A stretch of 64,000 nucleotides of DNA from Vicinamibacterales bacterium. Lineage in GTDB: Bacteria > Acidobacteriota > Vicinamibacteria > Vicinamibacterales > Fen-181. This document shows positions 5,106 through 24,226 of this stretch, in pieces. The stretch is taken from contig DASXVO010000090.1 of NCBI GenBank assembly GCA_036504215.1, positions 1 through 64,000 of the forward strand. The letters run 5' to 3'. Position 1 is the stretch's first letter; each line of letters begins with the position of its first letter. The position numbers and the translations under genes were made by a program. The notes under the pieces are model-generated. The model was not told the origin of the DNA and did no database searches. It saw only the letters and a program-made list of their open reading frames with translations.

Positions 5106-5789
5106 TCAGTGCCGGCTCAAGGCTGGGTCGGCGACGCCGGCCTCGGCGAAGCCCTTTGCGCGAAGGAGGCAACTGTCGCAGTGGCCGCACGGACGGCCAT
5201 CGGGAGCCGGGTCGTAGCAGCTGTGCGTCAAGCCGTAGTCCACGCCGAGAGACAGGCCCAGGCGGATGATCTCGGCCTTGGTCAGTGTGATGAGCGGCGC
5301 GTGGACGGCAAATCGCGCGCCCTCGACGCCGGCTTTCGTCGCGACGTTGGCGACCGCCTCGAACGCATGAATGAACTCGGGCCTGCAGTCTGGATAGCCG
5401 GAATAGTCGAGCGCGTTCACGCCGATGAAAATGTCGCGCGCATCGAGCGCCTCGACCCAGGCCAGTGCCAGCGACAGGAACACCGTGTTGCGGGCCGGCA
5501 CGTACGTCGGCGGAATGTCGGACGAGTCGAGCGCGCGGTCCTTGGGAACGTCCATGGCCGCCGTGAGCGCCGATCCGCCGAACGCGGAGAGATCGACCTT
5601 CAGCTCGATGTGCCTCACGACGCCAAGCGCCCGGGCCACGGCCCGCGCCGCCTGCACCTCGCGCGCATGCCTCTGGCCGTAGGAGATCGTCAGCGCGCAG
5701 ACTTCGAAGCCGTCACGATGGGCGACGGCCGCCGCGGTCGCCGAGTCGAGACCGCCGCTCAGAAGCACCACGGCTCGTGGTCGAGTCAT
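5106..5789 (-). CDS. queC: 7-cyano-7-deazaguanine (preQ0) synthase
   Basis: Converts 7-carboxy-7-deazaguanine to preQ0 with ATP and ammonia, in the pathway to queuosine in tRNA. The PP-loop SGGLDS is at residues 11-16, followed by a YGQRH segment. The C-terminal zinc-binding cysteines are seen in a C-x(9-10)-C-x2-C-x2-C pattern ([17 protein letters not shown]). The length of 227 residues is normal. Its ATG is 3 bp from the queE stop at 5793, so the two are certainly one operon and catalyse consecutive steps. queD and folE are not in the window; queA is, at 25.4-26.4 kb. Confidence 0.96.
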
Positions 5790-5792
5790 CCT

Positions 5793-6434
5793 TCACACCC
5801 CGCGCGCGTCGGCTCCCCAGATGAACTTGTGCACCTGCAGCTGCACGCGAACCGGCAGACGATCCGCGAGGACCCATTCGGCCAGCGCCTTCGGGTCGAG
5901 GACGCCGTGGACTGGCGAGAACAACACGCCCGCCACACGGTCGGCGAGGGTGTGCCGTTCGAGAACCTCCCGGGCGTAGTCGTAGTCCCCGCGATCACGG
6001 ATGACGAACTTCACCTCGTCGTGCGGCCGGAGCAGGGCGATGTTCGTCCAGTCGGTCCGGTCGCACTCGCCGCTGCCCGGGCACTTGACGTCCATGATGG
6101 TGATGACGCCGGGCGGCACGGTGGCGAGGCTCCGGTGCCCGCCCGTTTCGAGCAACACGATGCGGCCGGCCTTGACGAGCCGCTCCAACAGCACGATTGC
6201 GTCGGGCTGCAGCAGTGGTTCGCCGCCCGTCACCTCGACGAGCCGGCATCCCAGCCGATCGACCTCGGCCACCACCTCGTCCACCGTGGTCTTACGGCCC
6301 TCGTGAAACGCGTAGGCGGTATCGCACCACGAACAGCGGAGGTCGCACGCCGCCAGGCGGACGAAGGTGCACGGCAGGCCCGCGTAGCTCGACTCTCCCT
6401 GGATTGAATGGAAAAGCTCGTTGACCGTCAGCAT
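5793..6434 (-). CDS. queE: 7-carboxy-7-deazaguanine synthase (radical SAM)
   Basis: Radical SAM enzyme that contracts 6-carboxytetrahydropterin to 7-carboxy-7-deazaguanine. The cluster-binding CxxxCxxC is at C30, C34 and C37 (CDLRCSWC). The N-terminus NELFHSIQGESSYAGLPC and the glycine motif VTGGEPLLQ are diagnostic. Length is 213 residues. It is the first gene of the minus-strand queE-queC-AlaX unit. There is no Shine-Dalgarno sequence before the ATG at 6434, but a TACAAT box lies 8 bp upstream, so the message may be leaderless. It is divergent from the selenoprotein-DUF72 pair across a 163-bp spacer. Confidence 0.95.
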   Translation of the reverse strand: MLTVNELFHSIQGESSYAGLPCTFVRLAACDLRCSWCDTAYAFHEGRKTTVDEVVAEVDRLGCRLVEVTGGEPLLQPDAIVLLERLVKAGRIVLLETGGHRSLATVPPGVITIMDVKCPGSGECDRTDWTNIALLRPHDEVKFVIRDRGDYDYAREVLERHTLADRVAGVLFSPVHGVLDPKALAEWVLADRLPVRVQLQVHKFIWGADARGV

Positions 6435-6582: not shown

Positions 6583-6597
6583 TGCCTCGAGGTGCCC

Positions 6598-6936
6598 ATG
6601 GCCAAACCGGTGTTCTACTGCAAGCCGACATGAACGACGTGCCGCAACGCCAGAAGTTTTCTGGAGCAACTCGGCGTGGACGTGGAGTTCAGGGACATCA
6701 ACCGGGAACCGCCGCCGCGCGCGTTTCTCGAGCAGCACGTGGATGCGCAGCGGTTCATGGACTTCGTGAGCAAGAGAAGCCCGGCCTTGAAGGATCGGCC
6801 GCTGCCAACCTCCAAGAAACAGGCGATTGACCTGATGGTCGAGCAGCCGAACCTGATCAAGCGCCCCATTCTGATCAAAGGGCCGCGAGTGGTCTTCGGG
6901 TTCGACAAGGACGAATACCAGCAGCTGTTCAGGTGA
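6598..6936 (+). CDS. ArsC/Spx-family thioredoxin-fold protein with in-frame TGA (probable selenocysteine) at codon 12
   Basis: Reading from ATG 6598, the frame gives MAKPVFYCKPT, then TGA at 6631-6633, then TTCRNARSFLEQLGV, and stays open to the TGA at 6934-6936. With the internal TGA read as an amino acid the protein has 112 residues, the normal size for the ArsC/Spx/YffB family (PF03960). The TGA falls exactly on the first redox Cys of the family's C-x-x-C-R motif (U12-T-T-C15-R16). Downstream family features are intact: VEFRDINREPP, the long middle helix region, and a C-terminal LIKRPILIKGPRVVFGF matching the usual RP-(I/L) segment. An SECIS-like hairpin follows at 6641-6675. The family includes glutathione/thioredoxin-linked arsenate reductases and Spx-type RNA polymerase regulators; I cannot say which role applies. 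The gene is 7 bp upstream of the DUF72 gene. selA, selB and selC are not in the window, so Sec decoding in this organism is untested. The alternative is a point-mutated pseudogene or a sequencing error. Confidence 0.75.
6641..6675 (+). promoter_or_regulatory. Bacterial SECIS-like stem-loop downstream of the TGA codon
   Basis: Inner stem CCAGAA (6650-6655) pairs perfectly with TTCTGG (6659-6664) around a 3-nt loop GTT, and an outer helix GCCG (6641-6644) pairs with CGGC (6672-6675). The apical G (6656) is the 23rd nucleotide after the TGA. As I recall, the bacterial SECIS consensus asks for a G at the start of a small apical loop some 16-37 nt after UGA. The hairpin lies in the coding region, as bacterial elements do. 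Confidence 0.6.
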
Positions 6937-6943
6937 CCGGCCC

Positions 6944-7924
6944 GTGACCGACCAGATCGCGAGTGCGGGTGCCGTCCGAATCGGCACGTCGGGCTGGAGT
7001 TATCCGTCCGGGCGGGGCACCTGGAACGGCATCTTCTACCCGGTGCGCGGCGAGCGAGGCTTTCGCGCGGGGGACGAGCTTCGCTACTACGCCGAGCACT
7101 TCGACACTGTCGAGGTGAACGCCACGTTCTACCGGCCGCCCGTCGCCGCCGTGACGGCCCGGTGGTTGCGGGAGACGCCGCGCGAGTTCGAGTTCTCGGT
7201 CAAGCTCCACCAGAAGTTCTCGCACGTCACCCCCATCGGCCGCGGCCCATCGTCGCCGCCAGCAACCGCCGCCCGCCAGGAACTTCCGCATCCGACTCCG
7301 GAGGATGTTGACGAGTTCAAGGCCGGAATCGAACCGCTGGCAGATGGCGGCAAGCTGGGCGTGCTCCTCCTCCAGTTTCCTCCCTCGTTTCGCAGAACCC
7401 CGGAAGCCAGCGAGTACCTGCGCGGGCTGCTGCGTGCCTTCAGGGAGTATCCCGTCGCCGTCGAGTTGCGTCATCGGTCGTGGAGTGACGCCGAAGCAGA
7501 CACGCTCGCGCTGCTCGACGAGTTCGACGCCGCGTGGGTGCAGATTGACGAGCCGAAGTTCCGGTTCTCGATTCGCCAGACCCTCATGCCCAACATCAGC
7601 CGTTTCTACTACATGAGGCTGCACGGCCGAAATGCTGAGCAGTGGTGGAAACCCGACGCGCCGGAGGATCGCTACAATTACCTGTACTCTCCCGAGGAAC
7701 TGCGGCCGATCGCCGAGGTGGTCGCGCTGGTCCGTCCAGAGGTGCGTAAGGCCTACCTGTATTTGAACAATCACTTTGCCGCCAAGGCGGTCGTGAACGC
7801 GGTCACCTTGAAGCACCAACTCGGCATGCAGGTCGAGGGCGAATTCCAGGACCGGTTCGTGCGCGCGTACCCCGATGTGGCCGAACTTGTGAGGGTTCCT
7901 GGCGACGATTTCCTGTTCCGCTGA
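6944..7924 (+). CDS. DUF72 (YecE-like) family protein
   Basis: A 326-residue TIM-barrel-like protein of the DUF72 family (COG1801). Typical segments are IGTSGWSYP near the N-terminus, YAEHFDTVEVNATFYRPP (about 50-68), FEFSVKLHQKFSH, LGVLLLQFPPSF, YPVAVELRHRSW, FYYMRLHGRN and YLYLNNHFAAKAVVNA near the C-terminus. The biochemical function of the family is not established. The start is GTG 6944, only 7 bp after the candidate selenoprotein, so the two are probably co-transcribed. The protein is cytoplasmic, with no signal or membrane segment. Confidence 0.88.
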   Translation: MTDQIASAGAVRIGTSGWSYPSGRGTWNGIFYPVRGERGFRAGDELRYYAEHFDTVEVNATFYRPPVAAVTARWLRETPREFEFSVKLHQKFSHVTPIGRGPSSPPATAARQELPHPTPEDVDEFKAGIEPLADGGKLGVLLLQFPPSFRRTPEASEYLRGLLRAFREYPVAVELRHRSWSDAEADTLALLDEFDAAWVQIDEPKFRFSIRQTLMPNISRFYYMRLHGRNAEQWWKPDAPEDRYNYLYSPEELRPIAEVVALVRPEVRKAYLYLNNHFAAKAVVNAVTLKHQLGMQVEGEFQDRFVRAYPDVAELVRVPGDDFLFR

Positions 7925-24149: not shown

Positions 24150-24226
24150 TGGTGCCGGTGCAGGGACTTGAACCCCGGACTCCGCGGATATGAGCCGCGT
24201 GCTCTAACCAACTGAGCTACACCGGC
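24150..24226 (-). tRNA. tRNA with CAU anticodon (tRNA-Met elongator, or tRNA-Ile2)
   Basis: On the minus strand a full cloverleaf is visible: acceptor GCCGGTG/CACCGGC, D-arm GCTC/GAGC, anticodon stem CGCGG/CCGCG with loop CTCATAT (anticodon CAT), T-arm CGGGG/CCCTG with TTCAAGT, discriminator A, and an encoded CCA (24150-24152). The 1-72 G-C pair and the lack of three G-C pairs next to the anticodon loop exclude initiator tRNA. Elongator Met is the simplest reading. A CAU tRNA-Ile, which would be a TilS substrate, cannot be ruled out by eye. It begins 16 bp downstream of the stop of the gene at 24243. Confidence 0.95.

Follow-up and report, generated by a model that had tools for sequence, protein, structure and literature searches.

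In the 64,000-nucleotide stretch of Vicinamibacterales DNA analysed here (the window), an open frame interrupted by a TGA triplet at its twelfth codon lies between queC and a probable queE gene on the minus strand and a DUF72 gene on the plus strand (Table 1). An otherwise intact frame of 112 residues with this in-frame TGA had been described in the first-pass annotation, and re-reading of the sequence confirmed it. The translation reads MAKPVFYCKPTUTTCRNARSFLEQLGVDVEFRDINREPPPRAFLEQ... and ends at a TGA stop codon (6934-6936). With Cys put at the Sec codon, the product matches the Pfam families ArsC (1.1e-15, residues 7-109) and Glutaredoxin (1e-7). The placement of the TGA at the first redox Cys of the family was borne out by a close homologue, L063, which has Cys (TGC) there. 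Standard gene callers would cut the gene at codon 11, and the one entry for this frame in the open reading frame listing is an 86-aa fragment that starts at GTG 6676.

Table 1. Features of the locus in window coordinates
Feature	Position	Strand	Remark
queC	5106-5789	-	context
Divergent radical-SAM gene, probably queE	5793-6434	-	context
-10-like box TATAAT, just 5' of the start codon	6577-6582	+	putative promoter element
Possible ribosome-binding site GAGGTG	6589-6594	+	by eye from the sequence
Predicted selenoprotein gene, ArsC/Spx/YffB-like (TIGR01617 branch), 112 aa, Sec as residue 12	6598-6936	+	
TGA codon 12, predicted Sec codon that opens the U-T-T-C motif	6631-6633	+	kept in orthologues
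Hairpin CCAGAA-GTT-TTCTGG resembling a bacterial SECIS, with G as the first loop base	6650-6664	+	conservation, covariation at 6654/6660
DUF72 protein gene, 326 aa, probable operon partner	6944-7924	+	Pfam PF01904, 2.6e-59

Of 44 orthologues, 31 have a TANNNT motif at a distance of 12-32 nt upstream from the start codon, as compared to 16 of 641 control stretches. The box begins 12 nt ahead of the ATG in many orthologues, and in these cases the mRNA would therefore be almost leaderless. A search of the 64-kb window with Rfam gave a tRNA-Met gene (24150-24226, minus strand) as the sole match.

Conservation of the TGA codon and the Sec machinery

Orthologues were searched for in 162 genomes of the same order, with the source genome and partial copies at contig ends included in the count. 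An internal TGA occupies the corresponding codon in 44 genomes, i.e. the source and 43 others, which belong to about ten families of the order; this answers the question raised in the first-pass annotation whether relatives carry TGA or TGC at this position. Complete TGA-bearing copies are 55-73% identical over the frame beyond the TGA, and the only close homologue with Cys at the Sec codon is L063 (genome G038). Third codon positions are the most variable ones before and after the TGA alike. Stop codons scattered elsewhere in the relatives, which had been named as contrary evidence in the first-pass annotation, were absent with a single exception: L067 (G122:C2) has an additional in-frame TAG as well as a broken outermost hairpin pair and is apparently a decaying gene copy.

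The source genome (5.9 Mb in 90 contigs, completeness 100%) was examined for selA, selB, selC and selD, as suggested in the first-pass annotation, and all four were found. selC was detected with Infernal at 66.3 bits and was called by ARAGORN as tRNA-SeC with the anticodon tca. SelA, SelB and SelD scored 526.4, 359.5 and 348.9 bits at cut-offs of 268, 242 and 125, respectively. The selD gene of this genome (L018, G000:C47) has an in-frame TGA of its own in the motif SCSGUASKL, which we take to be the usual Sec/Cys site of SelD, and therefore is probably a selenoprotein gene, too. Over the order, 42 of the 44 TGA-bearing genomes possess selA, as compared to 84 of the 118 others (Fisher p=4e-4, not corrected for relatedness). 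Both TGA-bearing genomes in which selA was not detected, G005 and G033, are fragmented drafts. Since several genomes of the order possess the Sec machinery and lack the gene, it is dispensable.

From the conserved TGA, the covarying hairpin described below, the complete Sec machinery and the predicted fold we infer insertion of Sec at codon 12, and we consider it very probable that 6598-6936 is a genuine bacterial selenoprotein gene in which UGA is decoded as Sec. It is an acidobacterial ArsC/Spx-like gene of this kind that is real but unannotated. As an alternative, the TGA might end a short leader peptide and the product might start at GTG 6676, where the 86-aa frame indeed exists, with no Sec involved. 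Such a product would be devoid of the first strand and the entire UxxC active site, a strongly conserved part of the protein, and the close non-Sec homologue L063 has Cys rather than a truncation; this start is very improbable. A pseudogene or sequencing error, i.e. an ArsC-family gene for a Cys protein in which a nonsense mutation arose or TGC was misread as TGA, might be thought of in view of the decaying appearance of L067. It is contradicted by the recurrence of this TGA, within a frame that is otherwise conserved, in 44 separately assembled genomes, by the variability of third codon positions on both sides of the TGA and, decisively, by the joint conservation of TGA and hairpin, which refutes it in practice and leaves it a negligible probability. 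No support was found for reassignment or general read-through of TGA in this lineage, e.g. as Trp and without Sec, and this reading is hardly credible given that the gene itself terminates in TGA, that the genome has the full selA/selB/selC/selD set and that the homologue has Cys, not Trp, in place of U.

When the comparison is extended to 396 genomes of the phylum, homologues are seen in several groups, in Sec as well as Cys forms, and the tree of 60 rows requires at least 4 changes between U and C. Sec appears to be ancestral within the order, and L063 appears to represent a later switch to Cys along with loss of the hairpin.

The SECIS-like hairpin

A stem-loop with a G at the start of a 3-nt loop, 22 nt after the TGA, had been noticed in the first-pass annotation and is present as described: positions 6650-6655 pair with 6659-6664 around the loop GTT (6656-6658), and it is the first loop base that lies 22 nt behind the TGA. 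In 41 Sec orthologues the stem is formed by +19..+24 and +28..+33, counted from the T of the TGA, and 95.9% of the hairpin cells are paired. Four of the six stem pairs are intact in 40 or 41 of these 41 sequences. At the fifth pair, +23/+29, 27 sequences have A-T and 14 have G-C, with no mixed case; this compensatory swap requires at least 3 changes on a protein tree in which many forks are poorly resolved. The sixth, loop-adjacent pair is open in 9 of the 41, and the first loop base is G in all of them. For the Arg encoded within the stem the Sec orthologues invariably use AGA or AGG, codons that account for 2.3% and 7.7% of the local Arg usage in nearby genes. At the corresponding site the Cys homologue L063 reads CGG GCG TTT CTC and forms no stem.

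The published bSECIS model asks for a loop of 3-9 nt, a stem of 4-16 bp, a spacing of 16-37 nt, a G within the first two loop positions and a minimum free energy of at most -7.5 kcal/mol (PMC13188914). The hairpin lies within these bounds for loop (3 nt, GTT), stem (6 bp), G (first position) and spacing (22 nt). As to the energy, the conserved 6-bp hairpin alone, at about -4.9 to -6.2 kcal/mol, is weaker than the -7.5 of the model, a strength that the window sequence attains only together with the non-conserved outer helix (-14.0 kcal/mol). This outer 4-bp helix (GCCG/CGGC) had also been pointed out in the first-pass annotation; it does form in the window sequence, but only 32% of its cells are paired over the 41 orthologues, and we rejected it as a conserved element. 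As the outer helix is not conserved, the small conserved apical hairpin is the foremost candidate for the element bound by SelB.

As a chance control, the same peptide was synonymously resampled with local codon usage. A loosely bSECIS-like stem of at least 6 bp arose in about 30% of the resamplings, so that the hairpin was rejected as stand-alone proof of Sec; a hairpin exactly here in the same form arose in 0.8%. The evidence from the hairpin rises above chance because TGA and hairpin are conserved together over dozens of genomes.

Fold, active site and probable role

An AlphaFold model calculated with 19 aligned homologues (pLDDT 93, pTM 0.83) confidently places the protein in the YffB/Spx fold. 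YffB (1rw1) is the nearest solved fold with a TM score of 0.87, followed by Spx with about 0.7-0.8. In sequence-profile ranking among solved structures, Spx comes first (3.8e-18), followed by ArsC-related proteins and YffB. The motif KPTUTTC is nearly invariant in the aligned relatives, and the invariant residues include K9, P10, U12, T13, C15, R60, S61, P62, R89, P90 and G101. Among these, R60 and R89 sit at the positions of functional arginines in ArsC and Spx.

The most economical role for such a protein is that of a thiol/selenol oxidoreductase, and a selenol-dependent disulfide reductase is the function that we favour with moderate confidence; binding to RNA polymerase and reduction of arsenate are less likely. 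An Spx-like, redox-switched regulator that binds RNA polymerase would be in keeping with the first rank of Spx among solved structures, with the conserved Arg60 and RRP arginine of Spx and with the Spx/MgsR model TIGR01617, whose cut-off of 75.05 is exceeded by 0.3 bit in a borderline pass (75.4, with C at the Sec position). On the other hand, the nearest fold is that of YffB, and the dedicated Spx models score far under their cut-offs. Furthermore, Gly52 of Spx is a contact to the C-terminal domain of the RNA polymerase alpha subunit, and the exchange G52R disrupts binding (PMC2801614). The window protein has Arg52 at this position and none of the aligned relatives has Gly, which makes a Spx-type contact with RNA polymerase alpha unlikely; the regulator as a whole we likewise regard as unlikely. 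A Sec-dependent arsenate reductase is suggested by membership in Pfam ArsC and by arginines that coincide with Arg60 and Arg94 of ArsC. However, the arsC equivalog TIGR00014 is failed with 34.7 versus a cut-off of 106.05, the local match to solved E. coli ArsC chains stops near profile position 94, short of the third catalytic arginine, and no recognisable ars genes were found among the recurring neighbours. Arsenate reduction is thus an improbable function of this protein.

For the favoured oxidoreductase, the following course of events can be envisaged. SelB and Sec-tRNA(Sec) would insert selenocysteine at the UGA of codon 12 under the guidance of the conserved hairpin, which begins 16 nt 3' of the UGA, and synthesis of the full-length protein would require this decoding. 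The active site would be Sec12-x-x-Cys15 on a glutaredoxin-like ArsC/YffB/Spx fold. Most likely, Sec12 would attack the oxidised substrate, Cys15 would resolve it as a selenenylsulfide, and the latter would then be reduced by thioredoxin or a low-molecular-weight thiol. YffB has been proposed to use glutathione. In the source organism such a partner is doubtful for the window protein, because the bacillithiol synthesis gene bshA is present and the glutathione synthetase model TIGR01380 has no match in the genome; the low-molecular-weight thiol would here be bacillithiol, not glutathione.

The DUF72 gene begins 7 nt past the stop codon of the selenoprotein gene and is probably co-transcribed with it. 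In 33 out of 40 orthologous loci it is the next gene downstream in the same orientation, usually 0-60 nt away. Co-expression of the DUF72 protein is probable, and it may act as a partner. In most of these loci queE lies divergently upstream, and queC, alanyl-tRNA editing-like and endonuclease III-like genes are found nearby. Given the synteny of the entire block, the link to DUF72 is suggestive only. In more distant relatives, of the Thermoanaerobaculia type and of the other Sec groups, no DUF72 gene was found in the 1-3 kb of flanking sequence examined, and the pairing may therefore reflect nothing more than synteny inside the order. It is a tentative idea, and one that we hold to be rather doubtful, that the Sec protein and the DUF72 protein make up a two-component redox system of Acidobacteriota, the former acting as a selenol reductase for the latter. 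A literature search on DUF72 yielded nothing useful, and its usual upstream neighbour offers a possible handle on it.

Relationship to known ArsC-like selenoproteins

As the first-pass annotation stated, ArsC-type selenoproteins have been predicted from metagenomic data (PMC1088965, PMC2398784). In 2005, Sec-containing ArsC relatives of the UxxS type were predicted, with 14 sequences (PMC1088965), followed in 2006 by the prediction of an ArsC-like Sec protein (PMC1794560). In 2008, 'Arsenate reductase 2' (cd03032, UxxC) was described with 42 Sec sequences from the Global Ocean Sampling (PMC2398784), and a catalogue from 2026 lists one UxxC form, NF041106, as 'arsenate reductase-like, UxxC' (PMC13188914).

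The window protein shares with arsenate reductase 2 its nature as an ArsC-family Sec protein with UxxC. The domain cd03032, to which arsenate reductase 2 is assigned, is the Spx-type ArsC domain. The Global Ocean Sampling sequences are marine metagenome reads, and the paper mentions no Acidobacteria. NF041106 (ArsC_rel_Se_1, ArsC family (seleno)protein) belongs to the same superfamily and has Sec at the same position. The window protein fails this model with a score of 19.6 versus a cut-off of 85, whereas true members, L074 and L124, occur in the same order and phylum. Arsenate reductase ArsC 1 from the Sargasso Sea and the Global Ocean Sampling (PMC1088965, PMC2398784) likewise has Sec at the ArsC catalytic cysteine, but in a UxxS rather than a UxxC motif, and is filed under TIGR00014 (PMC13188914), whose cut-off the window protein misses. 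YffB (PA3664, 1rw1) and Spx (1z3e, 3gfk) share the fold and have their redox Cys at the Sec position; in contrast to the window protein they are Cys proteins, and the Gly52 contact of Spx has no counterpart here.

Since it fails NF041106 while the genuine member L074 occurs in the same order, the window protein represents a separate subfamily within a kind of Sec protein that is already known. Neither NF041106, a curated Sec model, nor the catalogue (PMC13188914) includes this acidobacterial subfamily, and the NCBIfam release searched contains no curated selenoprotein model that detects it. A literature search on acidobacterial selenoproteins gave nothing relevant beyond general surveys. Our results add a well-supported, order-wide selenoprotein subfamily to these abundant soil bacteria.

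Further TGA-containing ArsC/Spx groups were observed in Acidobacteriota, namely UTSCRKA, UTTCRNAR, USTCRKAVALL and UxxS types (L056, L057, L088-L090, L106-L125). Apart from the NF041106 members, none of those scored passes a curated Sec model. This diversity suggests that Acidobacteriota use selenium several times over in the ArsC/Spx fold.
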